Virus record (IMG/VR): IMGVR_UViG_3300043410_001789
Location: 1 to 64,000 of that record
DNA: 64,000 nt
Direction: 5' to 3' (one strand)
Source of the DNA: a virus
This document shows positions 8,416 to 20,592 of the stretch, piece after piece. The position numbers and the translations under genes are program-made. The notes under the pieces are model-generated. The model was not told the origin of the DNA, ran no database searches, and saw nothing but the letters and a program-made list of their open reading frames with translations. How positions within the stretch are numbered: position 1 is the first letter of the stretch; each line of letters starts with the position of its first letter.

Positions 8416-9049
8416 AAAAGCTCCTAACTCTTTCTTCTATTATAGCATTTGACTCTATGATCATGTCAAACATTGGCTCTCCTCTTTTAATTATACCCTG
8501 CTCTGAGTCCTTCATATGCTTGCCTATCTTTTTAAAATAGCATGCGACCATGGGAGGATGTATGGCATGTATGTCCTTTGGGATATAGTTAAAATTAGAA
8601 TTAAGAGGTATGGGCAATATGGCTGAACCAGGAACTGGAACATATTTAACCTTAGTAGGATAATCTAAAATCCAGGGCACATAGAATTTATAAATTTCCT
8701 CTGAGAAACAATCTGGGTGCTGATCAAACGGCATGGCTGTTCTATAGTACTGTCTGACCCAGGTTCTATCTATATTATAAAACCCTACATCTGCATTGTT
8801 AAGTATGTATATATCTGCCTGAGTTTTTTGTCTAAGCACTATTGAGGATTCTGAAATTGAAATAAGTTCTGGTGGTGGGTATAAATACTCTACATATTTA
8901 TTAATTGGCTTAATTATTGAGTCCCCAAATTTTTCTTTATTAATTTGATCAAATAGTACCCATCTGGCTGGAACCAAAGATTCTTCACATATCTTTATAA
9001 AGTCTGGATCTTTAGTTTTACTCCAGATATCACGATCAACTTCTTGCAT
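8381..9049 (-). CDS. Uncharacterised protein, divergent family copy 3
   Basis: A 222-residue protein directly after the tRNA cluster. Its C-terminal half keeps spaced remnants of the two neighbouring paralogues: a YVPVPGSAILPIPLN block and a QGIIKRGEPMFDMI block matching their 'GVIKQGTPIIQLI'. The N-terminal half is not alignable by eye. GGAAAG precedes the ATG. I regard it as a distant third member; function unknown. The 35-nt overlap with the next gene is unusually long for this window. Confidence 0.55.
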   Translation of the reverse strand: MQEVDRDIWSKTKDPDFIKICEESLVPARWVLFDQINKEKFGDSIIKPINKYVEYLYPPPELISISESSIVLRQKTQADIYILNNADVGFYNIDRTWVRQYYRTAMPFDQHPDCFSEEIYKFYVPWILDYPTKVKYVPVPGSAILPIPLNSNFNYIPKDIHAIHPPMVACYFKKIGKHMKDSEQGIIKRGEPMFDMIIESNAIIEERVRSFYAKGIVSPIFR

Positions 9050-9764: not shown

Positions 9765-9885
9765 AGGTGGTAGGAAACGACAACGCCTACCTCGTCAGAG
9801 TAATTACCTCACTCAGCACCGCACGTTATTATCTAGAATAATCTGCTGCGTACTCAGGTCATGTTCTCTATTTATTTGTAAATCT
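9765..9885 (-). other. Leader of the tRNA transcript
   Basis: This 120-nt stretch between the tRNA promoter and tRNA-Asn holds no open frame or tRNA that I can support. It is presumably removed by RNase processing. The spacers between the tRNAs (50 to 193 nt) are unusually long for a phage tRNA cluster. Confidence 0.5.
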
Positions 9886-10678
9886 ATTGTAGCACGTTCA
9901 CAAACTTAGCGTCAAGCGTTCCAGAAACAAATTTTGCAGCAACTGCAACGTTTCCTGCTGACGTAGTATTTGGAATTAGTCCAAGAATTGGTGACTTATA
10001 AGAATATACTGATGCTGAGGCAAAGTAGTCCGTACTGGCATCTGCAGCATATGAGCTTACAACCACACCCAGCTTATTGAGAGATCCAACACTAACTGAG
10101 TTTGTCTCCAAAATACATGCTGGATAACTAATCTTTGTTCCTTGTGTGTTGCCAGTAGCGACAAATACTGGGATTCCTAGTGACTTAAGGTTAGCAATTT
10201 GACTACGAATAGTTGCATCTGCTTTAGCAACACCACCATATGGTGCAGTATTTACGCTTGCAGGAGTACATCCAGAAGTTCCATTAAAGTAACGTGAAAT
10301 GGCTACAGCACCAACTGATGAAGAATGAGAGGATACCCAATTCAATGCATCAATAAAGTTTCCTGCGTTTACATCACTTACAGACTTTGCACTTGGAAAT
10401 CCAGCCCTCAATGCAATAATTGATAGTCCAGGATTTTGCTTCTTTGCAACCTCCACCATGGCATCGCCATGATTAATATTGTCGGATAGGCTTGCTGGGA
10501 TAGTCTTAACCACGTCTGTACATGGCTTATCTTCTAGAGTTACACAAGACACATTCCCACTAATCACACGTGAATCAAAATAGGAATCGATGATTACTAG
10601 TGATTTGGTTTCTGCCTGTGCTGGAGTTACTGAAATAGATGCAATCAATGCACCCAAAATAATTGCTGTTTTCTTCAT
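9884..10678 (-). CDS. Secreted subtilisin-like (S8) protease homologue
   Basis: A 264-residue protein with a clear Sec signal peptide (MKK, hydrophobic core, AQA cleavage site near residue 22). The rest fits a small S8 subtilase: Asp in IIDS (D31), His in NHGD (H70), the oxyanion Asn in VATGN (N177) and a Ser in NTTSAGNVAVAA (S240), equivalent to the GTSMAAP loop. There is no propeptide and flanking motifs are degenerate, so activity is uncertain. Four cysteines could form disulfides outside the cell. It is the last gene before the tRNA promoter. It could act on host surface or envelope proteins (inference). Confidence 0.7.
   Translation of the reverse strand: MKKTAIILGALIASISVTPAQAETKSLVIIDSYFDSRVISGNVSCVTLEDKPCTDVVKTIPASLSDNINHGDAMVEVAKKQNPGLSIIALRAGFPSAKSVSDVNAGNFIDALNWVSSHSSSVGAVAISRYFNGTSGCTPASVNTAPYGGVAKADATIRSQIANLKSLGIPVFVATGNTQGTKISYPACILETNSVSVGSLNKLGVVVSSYAADASTDYFASASVYSYKSPILGLIPNTTSAGNVAVAAKFVSGTLDAKFVNVLQ
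9886..9915 (-). promoter_or_regulatory. Strong promoter of the tRNA cluster
   Basis: Minus strand TTGACG, 18-nt spacer, TACAAT. It lies over the last codons and stop of the subtilase-like gene and reads into the four tRNAs and then the 9049-6133 genes, as there is no terminator between them. Confidence 0.78.
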
Positions 10679-11858: not shown

Positions 11859-12026
11859 TTACTCACCGTCCTTTCTCAATGGGTACGTCACTGTCCATAA
11901 GGCAAGCGTACCCAAGATGCAATAGCCAACTATAGTCTTGGCAGACCCTTCAAGGACTACCCAGGCTACGAACATACCTAATAATGTCCATGCTTGGCCT
12001 AAAATATCGTTTAGGAATTTCTTCAC
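11859..12026 (-). CDS. 55-residue membrane protein, holin candidate
   Basis: A GTG-started frame with a strong GGAGGG site 7 nt upstream, giving MKKFLNDILGQAW... with two hydrophobic segments (about residues 8-25 and 31-46) separated by a short polar turn and ending in a charged tail (PLRKDGE). The size and topology fit small holins, and similar proteins occur in actinophages. It overlaps the end of the PA14 protein gene by 4 nt and is followed by a second membrane protein. Confidence 0.65.
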   Translation of the reverse strand: MKKFLNDILGQAWTLLGMFVAWVVLEGSAKTIVGYCILGTLALWTVTYPLRKDGE

Positions 12027-14167
12027 TTTGTTTCCCTCCTTCTTGAAGATGGCTTTGATTCTGATGTTGATGAATCTCCACTACCACCAGAAGATCCACC
12101 AGAAGATCTAGATGACGAATTAGATGAACTAGAACCAGCAGCTGAAGATGTTGTGGCTGCTGCAGCGGTAGTAGCAGTTACGGTTGCATTTACCGCTGCA
12201 CCTGCAGCAATAACAGAAGCAACTACTGTTTTTTCTGCTTCATCACGAACTTGTGGGGACATGTCAGCACCAACGTTTCCCAGGGCATTAAATGTTTCTA
12301 AAACAACAGCTGCACCAGGTATGGATTCAAGTGCTGGTGGAAGAACTGGATCATCTGCTATAGCAGCAATAGCAAGAGCCTCAAGGGCTTTTTCGTATTG
12401 TGGTGAACCTTGTTCTGCTGTTTCAAATACTGCATTAGCTGCCTCTACAAGTTGTTCAATTTGTTTGTCAGACATTTGTTCTGGTGCTATGTCTGTTAAA
12501 ACTGCTATAGCAGCAACGGCTTCTTCTACTCGTAGCTCAGGTTCTGATTGTACTTCTGGGGTTGGTAACGGCTCTGGAGTTGATGACGGTTGTGGCTCAG
12601 GCGTTGCTGGCTCTTGAGAAGTGCTCTGGGACGGCGAAGGCGTAGGTGTTGGCTCTCTGAATGGTGGAATGGCTTCCAATTCCTGTTGAGCGACATTAAG
12701 CTCCTGCTGTTTTGTATTTACATCATTAGATGCTGATTCAATTATACCTGCTTTTTCAGTCTGAGTCGTTATTGCAGAGTCATATGAGGATTGGGCACTT
12801 GATGTATTTTGAGCTGATACCACTAAAGATTGTTGTGCAGATGATACTGCAGCTTCTGCTGCTGCTACAACTGTAGCTAAGGCAGGATCATTAATTAATG
12901 GGGCAGAGGCATTAACATCTGGTATCATCCTAGTTCGCTCTTCTCTGCGATATCTAGTTTCTTCAGTATAGAATGTTACATCAACATATATTGTTTCATC
13001 GTGTGACGTTGTTATGGTTGAATAGGTAGTTACATCTTCATAAGTTGTTACATCTTCATAGGTGGTGACTTCTTCATAGGTGGTTACGTCATTGTAGGTA
13101 GTAACATCTTCATAGGTTGTTGTTGCAGTTACTTGTGTTCCAAGCCAGGCTGCTGGAACTACCTGGAAACTTGAACCATTAACTAATTTAGCGTTTAGTT
13201 GTACCCAAGCACCTCCACCATTTTCATAGTAGTATAATGTGAATGGATAGAGAACTCCACCCATAATATTTACAGGCTGCGAAATAGATCCACCGCCACC
13301 CTTGTCTACCCAGTCACTAATTAGTCTCATACCAGCGACATCAAGAATTACCCCATCGTCTGCTGGTGCATAAAATTGATACTGTCCATCTGCTGGAAAG
13401 ATTAAGTTACCAGTAAATTTAACAATAACGTCTTCTGAATACCAAACATTTCCCTGTTGAAGAATATATCCACTACCCCATTGAAAATCAATATTGGAGA
13501 CTGTTGTTGTAAGTACTGGAGTTTCTCCTTCATATGGCAGTGGTGGTGCTTGATTGTATCCTCTGCGATTGTACATTTGTGCCATAATACCGCCACTTGT
13601 TGTATACGTTGTATGAGCAACCTGTGTAGTTGTAGGAACGCTTGTTGTACGAGCAACAGTTGTTGTTGTTGCTACAGTATTTGTGGTAGCTACCCTAGAG
13701 GTAGAAGATATCGTAGATGTATCGTATACTGTTATTGTTCTAGCTTCTTGCGTTACATTTGGAACCTGTACAGTATATGGAACATCAACATAATATGTTT
13801 CCTGTACCTCTGGCCTTACCCAAGATGGATCCGATATTAATAAGGTATTATAGTTGGTTTGAGCTTGCTGTAATGATGCCTGAGCTGCATCAACAGACTG
13901 TTGTGCACTTTGTTGTATTGCTATTGCAGAATCTAAATTTGTTTTAGCAGATTCAACCACTGCATCCGCATTTGCTTTATCAGCAATTGCATTTTGATAT
14001 GCAGCTTGTGCTTGTGTTAAGGCATCTTGAGCAGCAGAAACTTTAGCCTGAGCTTGTGCCACTTCTGCATCATACTCTGCTCTAGTTTGAGCGATTGCAT
14101 AGTTTACAGAAAAAAGTGGGGCTATGGCTATTAATATTGCTAGGATAAGTCTTTGGGGTTTTTTAAT
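12023..14167 (-). CDS. Secreted PA14-domain repeat protein with ATT start
   Basis: About 714 residues if translation starts at ATT 14167-14165, which has AAGGAG 8 nt upstream; a TGA seven codons earlier closes the frame, and no ATG, GTG or TTG precedes the signal peptide. That peptide (KKPQRLILA..., core, AIAQ) argues for the ATT start; the first GTG (14062) would remove it. Order: coiled coil (~30-110), Thr-rich segment, a PA14-like beta domain (~215-340, with FPADGQYQFYAPADDG), six YEDVTT-like repeats (~350-385), second coiled coil, Pro-rich linker, Ala-rich helices, Ser/Gly-rich tail. PA14 domains often bind sugars. It likely acts at the host surface or on the virion. Confidence 0.72.
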   Translation of the reverse strand: MKKPQRLILAILIAIAPLFSVNYAIAQTRAEYDAEVAQAQAKVSAAQDALTQAQAAYQNAIADKANADAVVESAKTNLDSAIAIQQSAQQSVDAAQASLQQAQTNYNTLLISDPSWVRPEVQETYYVDVPYTVQVPNVTQEARTITVYDTSTISSTSRVATTNTVATTTTVARTTSVPTTTQVAHTTYTTSGGIMAQMYNRRGYNQAPPLPYEGETPVLTTTVSNIDFQWGSGYILQQGNVWYSEDVIVKFTGNLIFPADGQYQFYAPADDGVILDVAGMRLISDWVDKGGGGSISQPVNIMGGVLYPFTLYYYENGGGAWVQLNAKLVNGSSFQVVPAAWLGTQVTATTTYEDVTTYNDVTTYEEVTTYEDVTTYEDVTTYSTITTSHDETIYVDVTFYTEETRYRREERTRMIPDVNASAPLINDPALATVVAAAEAAVSSAQQSLVVSAQNTSSAQSSYDSAITTQTEKAGIIESASNDVNTKQQELNVAQQELEAIPPFREPTPTPSPSQSTSQEPATPEPQPSSTPEPLPTPEVQSEPELRVEEAVAAIAVLTDIAPEQMSDKQIEQLVEAANAVFETAEQGSPQYEKALEALAIAAIADDPVLPPALESIPGAAVVLETFNALGNVGADMSPQVRDEAEKTVVASVIAAGAAVNATVTATTAAAATTSSAAGSSSSNSSSRSSGGSSGGSGDSSTSESKPSSRRRETK
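13021..13125 (-). repeat. Tandem 18-nt repeats coding YEDVTT
   Basis: Six or so imperfect 18-nt units within the PA14 gene encode consecutive TTY(E/N)(D/E)V hexapeptides. Units differ at third positions and a few codons. The array directly follows the PA14 domain and probably forms an extended spacer. Confidence 0.7.
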
Positions 14168-14205
14168 TTTGGAGTCTCCTTGTCAAACCTGAGTCTAACA
14201 AAATA

Positions 14206-17322: not shown

Positions 17323-17330
<8 letters not shown>

Positions 17331-17733
17331 TTAGTTTTTCCAACCTCTCTTTTACTTTAAGGACATCTTCTGATGTTCCGAATATTTCTACCCTGGCTAT
17401 TATGGGGACACCAGTTTTCCCAGATATTATTTCTGCTGCTTTACAGAAATGAATACCAAAATTAGTATTGCCAAGTCCAACAATCCCAACAAGCAAATTC
17501 CTGTTTTCAGGAATATTTAAAAAGTGTCGAACCTGTCTGGGGATTGCAGATTTTTCACTACCCCCACCATAAGTTGGTACAAAAAGTACATAGCGGTTGC
17601 TGACAGTAATAGGGCTATCAATATCCCAGTCAATAGGAATACGAATAGTGTTGCTGTTGTTGACATCTAATTTCTCCACAAATCTCTTAGTATTCCCAGA
17701 ATAATTTGAGAAGTATACAATATCTAGTGACAT
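17323..17733 (-). CDS. nrdI: NrdI flavodoxin-like RNR activator
   Basis: A 136-residue NrdI. It shows the FMN phosphate loop near the N-terminus ([16 protein letters not shown]), the VPTYGGG loop and the GLGNTNFG loop. NrdI activates the dimanganese centre of NrdF. AAGGAG precedes the ATG. It is the first gene of the operon; NrdH is encoded separately at 25950. Confidence 0.92.
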
Positions 17734-17763: not shown

Positions 17764-17793
17764 AGAAAAGGGAGAGAGCCGAAACTCTCTCCC
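17764..17793 (-). terminator. Intrinsic terminator after the surface-protein gene
   Basis: Minus strand GGGAGAGAG, loop TTTCGG, CTCTCTCCC, then TTTTCT. Perfect 9-bp stem. It isolates the secreted surface protein gene from nrdI. Confidence 0.9.
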
Positions 17794-17811
17794 CAATCAA
17801 TTTTACCACAA

Positions 17812-18792
17812 TTACTTAAGTAGGGCAACCTTGCTCTTTGGGTGAGCCTTGTTCCACTTAGTAGCAAGTGCGTTGTACTTGTTCTTGTTTCCAAGAGCAG
17901 CTGCATCAGCGAGGGCTAGCTTTGCGGTAAGCTCTGCTACCTGTGCAGTAAGTGCATTCTTATCTGCAGTTAGGGCAGTTACCTTACCGTTTGCAATTGC
18001 CAACTCTGCATCCTTCTCTGCTACAAGAGCAGCAAGGTCTACAACCTTAAGAGTTCCACGAACGAAACCAGTAGGAGTAGCAAGACCAGTAACAGCAGTT
18101 GCTACAGTAGCAGTTGCAATTAGGTCATACGAGCCAACAGCAAGACCAGTTAGTTCCTTGGTAGCCTCACCCTTAGCGTCAGTAGTTACTGAGTAGGTGT
18201 TGGTTGCAGTTGCAGAAACTACCTGTAGTGCTACGGTTGATCCAGCAACAGGGTTACCAAATACGTCAGTACCAGTAACGGTTACCTTAGCAGTTGTTCC
18301 AAGTGCAGCAGTCGGAGCAGCAAGTGCAATAGTGTTTAGTGCACCAGCAGCACCCTTAACATAATATGTTGCCAGGGTGTTTGTTCCATCTGACAAAACA
18401 ACCTTACCAGTCTTAGTGGTAGTTGTAAATACATTAAATGATGCAACAGTACCAGTACCAGTTGCAACAGTTGCAGTTGCGGTACCAGCAGATGGAAGAA
18501 CAGTTGTTCCAACGGTTGCGGTTAGCTTTGCATCAGTTGCAGTAGCAGTTACGGTTACATTGTTTGCGAGACCAGTCAGGTCAATGCGTAGAACGTCGCC
18601 AGAGGTAACGTTATTGTCTGCAGGGACTGGAAGAGTAACTGCAGTTGCTTCAGTAGTACCAGCAACGGTAGCTGAGTCTCCACCCACGAGGGCAAATCCG
18701 ACTGCAGCATTAGCTGGTGCTGCCACGAGGGCAGTTGTAGCAATTGCTACTGCAGTGGCAATAGCAATAAAAGGCTTCTTAAATGAAGTCAT
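17812..18792 (-). CDS. Secreted host-like surface protein (moron)
   Basis: A 326-residue protein with a classical Sec signal peptide (TSFKKPFIAIATAV..., cleavage near ANA). The mature part is Ala/Thr/Val-rich: two beta domains, the second with GTDVFGNPVAGSTV, a Big/Ig-like pattern (~165-245), then a coiled coil (~258-300) and a basic end (KWNKAHPKSKVALLK). This plan strongly resembles abundant secreted proteins of Nanopelagicales; the comparison is from memory. The gene stands alone, ending in a terminator, between terL and nrdI. It may be a host-derived gene that coats or masks the cell, or a decoy. Strong Ala/Thr bias separates it from its neighbours. Confidence 0.7.
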   Translation of the reverse strand: MTSFKKPFIAIATAVAIATTALVAAPANAAVGFALVGGDSATVAGTTEATAVTLPVPADNNVTSGDVLRIDLTGLANNVTVTATATDAKLTATVGTTVLPSAGTATATVATGTGTVASFNVFTTTTKTGKVVLSDGTNTLATYYVKGAAGALNTIALAAPTAALGTTAKVTVTGTDVFGNPVAGSTVALQVVSATATNTYSVTTDAKGEATKELTGLAVGSYDLIATATVATAVTGLATPTGFVRGTLKVVDLAALVAEKDAELAIANGKVTALTADKNALTAQVAELTAKLALADAAALGNKNKYNALATKWNKAHPKSKVALLK

Positions 18793-18816
18793 ATTTTTGT
18801 TTTCCTTTTCTCTTTG

Positions 18817-20592
18817 TTAGATTAGATCAAATCTAGCCAGGTATTCACGAACCTCTTTTGGCATAGGCTTATATTCTATCACATTATCCCTGTCCTTGTC
18901 AACCTGTGATTTTGGCCTGTCCCTAAAAGTATGAACCTCTACCTCAAGGTTTTGATCTTTTGGTGTGTGTGCGATTGCACCGTAGATTGCACCACAGACA
19001 GCGTCTGCAAGGTCCTTAGAGGACTTTCTAGGGTGGTCTACACGGTTTTGTTTAACTATCTTAAGTTCTGTAAGCTCTTCAAACAAAAGGTCAATTGCTG
19101 GCATAACCAAGCGGTCTTCATATACCAGCATAGCCATGTCTTCATAGTGTTTCTTTGCAACAGACACAGTTTCAGTTCTCATTCCGACTTGCTTTAACTC
19201 ATTCTGAATATCGAATGATTGCCAGCGGTCAAATGATACCATGCCAATATTAAATCCTAGTCTACGTAGATTTTGGATCCATTGCTTTACCTCGGAAAGA
19301 TTGACAGGACCCTCTACCTTTGGTTCCCACCAAGCTACTGCATCAACTACAACAATTGGCATGACCTGTTGATAATCTCTACCAATTTGAATATTTACCC
19401 ATTTGTCTACGTGAGCAATTGCAACAGCACATTTGTCATGCTTCTGTGCAAGGTCAGCGTGAACGTAATAAGTTTTTTCTGGGTCTGGTGTAAATGATGT
19501 ATCAAACCTTCTGTGCTGATCCAGTGGATTACGGATGCTCATAGCACTACGAATCTTGTCTTCTTGTCTAAAGAATCTGTCAGAGGAGAATGTAGGAACA
19601 CAGGCAAAGCGTTGCATCGCATCCCCCATATCAGTAAAGAATGCTAATTTAAAATCATCAATTTTTCTTGTAGGATTAACTACCCAGGTAGGACGCTTTA
19701 GTGCAAACATACCTGGATATTTATAAGAAACAATTGTGTCTTCATCCCACTCAATATCTAGATAGTTACCTTCTTGATCTTCTGGAAGTTCTGGATTCAT
19801 TATAAATCTGTGATGCTTTGTAACAACATCTTTCTCTGCAATTACCGTTTCATATCTAGACGAGATAAAGTCTCCTGGGTAACGAGGGAAGGAAAGAAGA
19901 GCAACTTTGCCCAAGTCTGGGAAACGTGAATCCACAGACGCACGGAATGCTTTGTAAATATTATCCGCAGTTTTTCCCTGGTCATTGCCAGTTCCAATCT
20001 CAGTAGCAAATCCTGAGATTTCGTCCAATACAGCGAGTATAAGGTTGAGACCCTCGTGTGATTCACGTTCGGAGTGACCAGAATAAACTGTGATAGAGTG
20101 ATCAAACTCAATGCTTTCTGCTTTAGCGTTAAATTTTCCAGCAAACCATGGAGACTTTTCGATCTTAGTCTTAAAGCCTTTAAAGAAGACGTTCTTAGCC
20201 TGTTGTGCGTTAATCGCAACGTTGATAATATCGATAGCGTCACCTGAAGGTTTACCGAAATAACGAGCAGGGTCCTTAAGACAAAGTAGTTTATATACGA
20301 TATAGGAACAAGCAACAGTAGAAGTAAAGTCTTTACCAGACCCCTTGCCAAGTTGTAGAATGACTTCATTCTTAGTGTATTTCTTGTAATAGCGTCTACC
20401 CTCTTCTTCGCCCATTAGATCGATAAGATCTTCTAGTTTATAAATTTGTGACATTGCTTCTACGATGTCGTATTGAATTTGTGACAGTGGTGGTTGATTT
20501 AGATACGCTTCGCCCTCAACAAATGTCTTAGCATCTACAGGACGCTCTGCAAAATTGTCGGACTTAAGTGCTTCTAAAAAATCATCAAACAT
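18817..20592 (-). CDS. terL: Terminase large subunit
   Basis: A 591-residue packaging motor. The ATPase part has LQLGKGSGKDF as Walker A (about residue 80) and LILAVLDEISGF as Walker B (about 185). The C-terminal nuclease part shows YVHADLAQKHDKCAVAI with the first catalytic Asp, and a later DLADAVCGAIYGA block with the distal Asp. It overlaps the small-subunit gene by 8 nt. It is unusual in being about 36 kb from the portal gene and next to recombination genes. Confidence 0.92.
   Translation of the reverse strand: MFDDFLEALKSDNFAERPVDAKTFVEGEAYLNQPPLSQIQYDIVEAMSQIYKLEDLIDLMGEEEGRRYYKKYTKNEVILQLGKGSGKDFTSTVACSYIVYKLLCLKDPARYFGKPSGDAIDIINVAINAQQAKNVFFKGFKTKIEKSPWFAGKFNAKAESIEFDHSITVYSGHSERESHEGLNLILAVLDEISGFATEIGTGNDQGKTADNIYKAFRASVDSRFPDLGKVALLSFPRYPGDFISSRYETVIAEKDVVTKHHRFIMNPELPEDQEGNYLDIEWDEDTIVSYKYPGMFALKRPTWVVNPTRKIDDFKLAFFTDMGDAMQRFACVPTFSSDRFFRQEDKIRSAMSIRNPLDQHRRFDTSFTPDPEKTYYVHADLAQKHDKCAVAIAHVDKWVNIQIGRDYQQVMPIVVVDAVAWWEPKVEGPVNLSEVKQWIQNLRRLGFNIGMVSFDRWQSFDIQNELKQVGMRTETVSVAKKHYEDMAMLVYEDRLVMPAIDLLFEELTELKIVKQNRVDHPRKSSKDLADAVCGAIYGAIAHTPKDQNLEVEVHTFRDRPKSQVDKDRDNVIEYKPMPKEVREYLARFDLI

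Follow-up and report, generated by a model that had tools for sequence, protein, structure and literature searches.

A stand-alone gene with its own predicted promoter and its own terminator lies between terL and nrdI in the 64-kb window (the whole stretch of DNA analyzed, 64,000 nucleotides of the 72.9-kb virus record IMGVR_UViG_3300043410_001789). It encodes an exported-type Ig-like/coiled-coil surface protein of 326 residues (17812..18792, minus strand), delimited from the open reading frame, searches and an AlphaFold2 model. Computation gave the promoter, the terminator, the architecture of the protein, a conserved slot behind terL with loss, gain and swapping of its contents, and homology to host surface-type proteins. 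That the slot gene is kept, lost or swapped at the same spot suggests a recoating of the cell by the phage during infection. We read the gene as resident, moron-like cargo for an exported surface protein that mimics the host's own and alters the infected cell, most likely excluding rival phages; to this reading as a whole we give slightly less than an even chance. The protein is probably exported and surface-attached, and probably acts against superinfection.

The slot gene, terL (18817..20592) and nrdI, which forms the downstream border of the slot (17323..17733, identified by family library matches), are all on the minus strand, and the slot gene starts 24 nt past the terL stop codon. An earlier, sequence-only reading had described the gene as isolated; this holds for transcription, since the gene has its own promoter-like site, but not for spacing, with the terL stop only 24 nt away. 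The same reading had listed a Sec signal, Ala/Thr/Val-rich beta domains, a coiled coil and a basic tail, and both the sequence and the AlphaFold2 model (built with 61 phage sequences; mean pLDDT 88.9) bear out all of them. Residues 1–30 (18703..18792, minus strand) form a predicted Sec-type signal peptide, with KK, a hydrophobic core and ANA-A, and are disordered in the model, with low pLDDT. They are followed by beta domain 1 (residues 31–148, 18349..18702, minus strand; 32–148 in the model), Ig-like domain 2 (residues 149–252, 18037..18348, minus strand; 154–251 in the model), and a single long coiled-coil-like helix of 64 residues (253–316, 17845..18036, minus strand), consistent with the heptad-like sequence of the C-terminal part. 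The basic C-terminal tail (residues 301–326, 17815..17892, minus strand; full tail KYNALATKWNKAHPKSKVALLK) finishes as a short extended segment ending in NKYNALATKWNKAHPKSKVALLK and is the hallmark of the phage family.

Ala, Thr and Val together make up 51% of the protein body, compared to 18–19% in terL, nrdI, nrdE and nrdF. Foreign base composition is a usual hint of a moron, although no strict criterion, and a composition unlike that of the neighbours had been taken as moron-like. The GC content of the gene does differ (47.3% vs 36–41% in the neighbours), but its GC3 (27.5%) is close to theirs (29–37%), so that the higher GC is explained by the amino acid composition; we thus rejected an origin from foreign DNA. 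Two ways of anchoring the protein were likewise discarded: as a lipoprotein, because the sequence has no Cys, and through an LPXTG motif, because there is none. Searches of Pfam and NCBIfam found no known S-layer anchoring domain (SLH and the like) in it; not every S-layer protein has one. A tested analogue of the proposed function is Ltp of Streptococcus phage TP-J34, a surface-exposed superinfection-exclusion protein of the moron kind (PMC3952083). Ltp, however, comes from a temperate phage and is a lipoprotein, and its combination of signal peptide and lipobox cysteine is missing from the cysteine-free slot protein.

The predicted promoter of the slot gene (18902–18873, minus strand) is near consensus and sits within the 3' coding end of terL, whose final codons house it, ending 53 nt ahead of the terL stop codon. 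It consists of a −35 box TTGACA (18897..18902, minus strand) and an extended −10 box TGA-TAGAAT (18873..18881, minus strand), with an 18-nt spacer between the hexamers. The 24-nt gap past the terL stop contains, as judged from sequence, a purine-rich ribosome-binding stretch AAAAGGAAAA (18800..18809, minus strand). Since the promoter sits inside terL, the slot gene can come and go at little cost, and cargo is maintained compactly, with a promoter inside a neighbouring essential gene. Downstream, the terminator of its own that had been claimed for the gene is present: a strong intrinsic terminator, GGGGAGAGAGTTTCGGCTCTCTCCCT plus a T tract (17769..17794, minus strand), with an 11-pair stem and a T-rich tail (z = −2.6). 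In 63 of 83 related loci a hairpin rich in G+C, followed by a T tract, begins about 9–19 nt past the stop, with stems that differ among them, against 2 of 83 in shuffled controls.

We compared the promoter region among distinct loci with terL at least 78% identical. Of the 67 loci whose slot is filled, 61 have the pattern TTGACA-18-TAnnnT, and all 25 empty ones lack it (Fisher p 3e-17, a value inflated by kinship). The −10 part was retained in most empty loci, as expected if the terL residues coded there also hold the −10 box. On a terL tree computed without the promoter codons, four independent pairs were available, and promoter and gene went together in about all of them; the link between promoter and slot is not significant once corrected for phylogeny (sign test, p = 0.125). 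Within the window the slot-type pattern occurs at five sites, compared to 0.37 expected. Two of the other sites lie ahead of SSB-like and helicase-region genes, and judging by this company the slot promoter class looks early or middle. Further TTGACA/extended −10 promoters on the minus strand lie at 8469–8439, 30609–30580 and 33621–33593, two of them ahead of replication-type genes.

To follow the history of the slot, we searched IMG/VR, whose records are metagenomic and in many cases fragmentary. A scan with the slot protein returned 56 loci, most with terL directly upstream; they reach down to a terL identity of 54–55%, where one small ORF intervenes. Of the 80 nearest terL relatives, 73 were readable and seven ended at a contig end. 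A secreted-type protein stood behind terL in 48 of the 73; the signal filter had overlooked 17 of these, which were recognised by eye through their MNSFKK-type N-termini. The slot was empty, with nrdI directly behind terL, in 15 of the 80; in another three nrdE was the next listed ORF, with a short nrdI frame visible in the DNA of two. In the remaining group of seven (L173, L176, L181, L182, L184, L186 and L187), the gene directly behind terL encodes, as judged by eye, a class-II-like ribonucleotide reductase (MSDFFSF...), so that the reductase class itself is swapped at the terL border, in contrast to the nrdI-nrdE-nrdF of other sister phages.

With slot states called by script and by eye on a quick LG+G4 terL tree, we counted about eight changes of state, at least four of them forced by well-supported branches. 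Filled slots were present in all deep clades of the tree, and the simplest reading is therefore repeated loss from a filled ancestor; the slot gene appears to be a resident, which argues against the later insertion into this genome that its position had seemed to hint at, and which we rejected. Repeated loss in turn implies that the gene is dispensable. The description as a moron-like unit fared better: besides the terminator, the gene has a predicted promoter of its own (TTGACA-18-TAGAAT) conserved in filled loci, and it is present or absent between the same neighbours. The nearest annotated terL kin are Streptomyces phages of Stanwilliamsviridae (53–55% identical), and in the two that we checked, Phredrick and Karimac, the slot gene is missing behind terL. 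Some other groups of phages have the gene too, but near WhiB-like and thioredoxin-like genes.

The slot protein diverges much faster than its neighbour. Among the nearest relatives terL is 87–94% identical and the slot protein mostly 65–72%, and the two measures disagree from genome to genome: L002 has 88% in terL and 90% in the slot protein, L008 has 94% and 72%, and other relatives with terL at 88–89% have a slot protein at 42%. This disagreement indicates that the gene is exchanged between phages. The dN/dS ratio of the slot gene is 0.22 (0.05 in terL), being highest in domain 1, the fastest evolving part (0.24), and falling to 0.17 in domain 2 and the tail, as would be the case for a protein that has a function and is kept by purifying selection, its outer domain being freest to change. 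Several different ectodomains occupy the slot among sister phages. The tails fall into types (KWNKAHPKAKVALKK, KYNVGKPKAEKLAFIK, YNKFVKKKKVKLIK, WNKKFPRAKVKLISSK and others). The commonest was found in at least 120 IMG/VR stretches; all 80 of these loci that were read belong to the slot-protein family, and in most of them terL lies immediately upstream.

These patterns bear on what the protein would do for the phage. Exclusion of rivals best accounts for an outer domain that varies in a gene that is traded between sister phages and can be lost. The same surface protein could instead protect the infected cell from flagellate grazing or other non-phage hazards until the burst. A host-like coat in grazed plankton bacteria, and a long variant of the protein with an S-layer-like structure match, are compatible with this, and actinobacterial surface structures play a role in grazing resistance; we consider it unlikely all the same, because a short lytic cycle leaves little time for such a benefit, and fast divergence with swapping among sister phages fits a conflict between phages better. 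A little less likely again is a secreted adhesin or decoy that binds neighbouring cells or rival virions, or keeps new hosts near the burst: the tandem Ig-like fold, with its invasin/intimin-type matches, and the variable outer domain would suit it, but the basic tail hardly varies, which suggests that the protein stays on the cell that makes it, and the host relatives resemble coat proteins. As for a role in lysis or release through action on the envelope, the protein is of exported type and basic, and an endolysin-like gene and other secreted genes lie downstream on the same strand. The slot, however, is outside the lysis region of this genome, family libraries detect no enzymatic domain, the promoter is of the type that precedes replication genes, the gene is missing in a third of relatives, and several different ectodomains use the slot; such a role is improbable.

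Database searches gave little that could place the protein. A tblastn search of INPHARED (50,697 annotated phages) had no match, PHROGs gave no significant match (weak coil matches only) and NCBIfam none. The sole Pfam match was to Big_1 (PF02369, invasin/intimin type), to which domain 2 is similar (E 6e-8), with 33.1 bits, below the cut-off of 34.9. A sequence-profile search of PDB returned weak, mostly coiled-coil matches only, and foldseek with the model retrieved only tandem Ig-like proteins with low TM-score (invasin, intimin, complement, Sulfolobus SlaB). For the model of the longer slot protein of L053, the best PDB match was the S-layer protein SbsB, with SbsC and EA1 further down; given TM-scores of 0.2–0.3, the likeness to S-layers is loose. 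Among the viral structures of BFVD the matches were generic Ig-like ones, including Big-1 phage proteins and a tail protein. The sequence-only reading had named best matches to virion proteins as a result that would overturn it; in our searches neither annotated virion proteins nor the structural families of PHROGs proved homologous. We regard a virion decoration or fibre protein as the least probable of the readings considered. Ig-like domains are common on phage virions, and the BFVD matches are in line with that, but the protein has a clear Sec signal, its gene is a transcription unit of its own outside the structural module, PHROGs and annotated phages hold no homolog, and there are homologs on bacterial chromosomes.

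Those homologs came from Nanopelagicales genomes, reached with the 16S probe AcI-852 (acI probe; sequence from PMC3699509). A profile of the phage family had strong homologs in two of 296 such genomes (L077 and L078), both on bacterial contigs and flanked by metabolic genes, in agreement with the expectation of secreted-type relatives on host chromosomes. They share both beta domains and the coil with the slot protein. L077, the homolog with a complete end, is 37% identical to the slot protein over 173 residues and 46% identical to the phage protein L025 over 231 residues; its C-terminus, LYNKLATKFKQKKIN, is similar to the phage tail YNALATKWNKAHPKSK, yet not the same. Two other candidates for host homologs, G033 and G196, proved to be chance matches (an ABC substrate-binding protein and a transport locus). 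The tail of the slot protein had 15 DNA matches in the 296 host genomes, none of them C-terminal on such a protein, and a scan of 84,980 genomes with tail patterns gave 53 pattern matches and zero confirmed relatives.

A more widespread host family was reached through sister phages. The slot proteins of L053, L049 and L190 are longer than that of the window (557–587 residues) and align over the full length with a 600–700-residue family of Nanopelagicales, with 27–39% identity to L053. This surface-type family is present in 46 of the 296 genomes; among 395 genomes sampled across the class, the 20 with a match had all been drawn before as Nanopelagicales. Its members (L083–L108; MSTKTTFKRIAL...) have serial Ig-like domains, an Ala-rich coil and a conserved LTNLVIKIQKKVKA-type C-terminal tail, and the family looks like a candidate surface-layer protein of Nanopelagicales. 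The protein of the window has the same plan, with Sec signal, serial beta domains, Ala-rich coiled coil and short basic tail, but it is half as long, lacks the full-length ectodomain homology seen in the three sister phages, and does not end in the LVIKIQKKVKA / VNKLLKK tail type of the family. Its similarity to the family is remote: profile comparison with host rows alone gave an hhalign probability of 87% (E 4e-6, 145 columns), and the higher value obtained with phage rows included is inflated. Tails differ in the longer proteins as well (KQYNALATKWNKAHPKSK in L053, ALTNLVIKIQKKVKA in the host).

In yet another sister phage, L188, the slot protein ends in TITCVKGKLTKKVTAVAPVCPTGYKKK, and this tail (CVKGKLTKKV..CPTGYKKK) is the C-terminus of many Nanopelagicales secreted proteins. 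Of 291 Nanopelagicales genomes, 75 contain the corresponding DNA pattern, often more than once, whereas a reversed control gave no match, and the pattern lay 22–28 residues from the C-terminus in the 20 loci read. A tail of about 24 residues, I[TS]CVKGK.TKKV....P.CP.G[YF]K.K, closes many different Nanopelagicales secreted proteins, several per genome (e.g., L325–L344), and is possibly an unrecognised sorting or anchoring signal. Sister phages thus have, in the same slot, genuine relatives of a surface-type protein that is widespread in Nanopelagicales, or a protein with a host tail. For the gene of the window, the earlier description as a copy of a host protein stands in part: homologs exist in the host group, but the nearest kin are phages, the tail was not found in the 296 host genomes and the profile match is remote.

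From the shared surface proteins, the host of the phage is probably a member of Nanopelagicales. The order ranks among the most abundant bacteria of fresh water. The carriers would be freshwater actinophages, probably infecting this order and distantly related to the Streptomyces Stanwilliamsviridae. Transcription of the slot gene would start at its own host-type promoter and stop at its own terminator, and the protein would be exported by Sec. The helix may serve as a stalk, with the variable beta domain 1 outermost, and the basic tail, although unlike host tails, may hold the protein on the envelope. There it would add to or mimic the Ig-like/coiled-coil surface proteins of the host, changing or hiding what the infected cell shows; competing phages would be excluded as their receptor is masked or replaced. 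A more specific version, which we hold as possible but clearly less likely than the general one, is an exchangeable coat slot, in which the phage dresses the cell in its own choice of the S-layer-like protein of the host and thereby hides the features recognised by rival phages, with the promoter kept in terL and ectodomains traded between phage and host. The marine OM43 phage Melnitz encodes an S-layer-type protein for which its authors propose protection from superinfection (PMC9004378), in passages that describe no such slot; it belongs to another phage group with another host, and the likeness is one of description rather than of compared sequences. A literature search on acI surface layers and on the slot gene returned no paper on either. 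The slot bears on how phages distinguish the many near-identical Nanopelagicales strains; a fixed position carrying host-like surface proteins points to a host surface family that matters to phages, and the ectodomains and tails swapped in nature form a set that can be tested.

Two other genes for secreted-type proteins were observed on the minus strand of the window. The product of 9884–10678 is a secreted protein whose D, H and S motifs (IIDSYFD, NHGDAM, TTSAGNVAVA) are spaced much as in subtilases, although it has no Pfam match; it is only 29–31% identical in sister phages whose terL is 87–92% identical. The gene at 12023–14168 encodes a PA14 and coiled-coil protein. Its translation seems in fact to begin on an ATT codon that follows AAGGAG, at about 14168–14166; this start would give the signal peptide IKKPQRLILAILIAIAPLFSVNYAIAQ. 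A relative of this protein in L031 (3140–5500) has a normal signal and occupies the terL slot.
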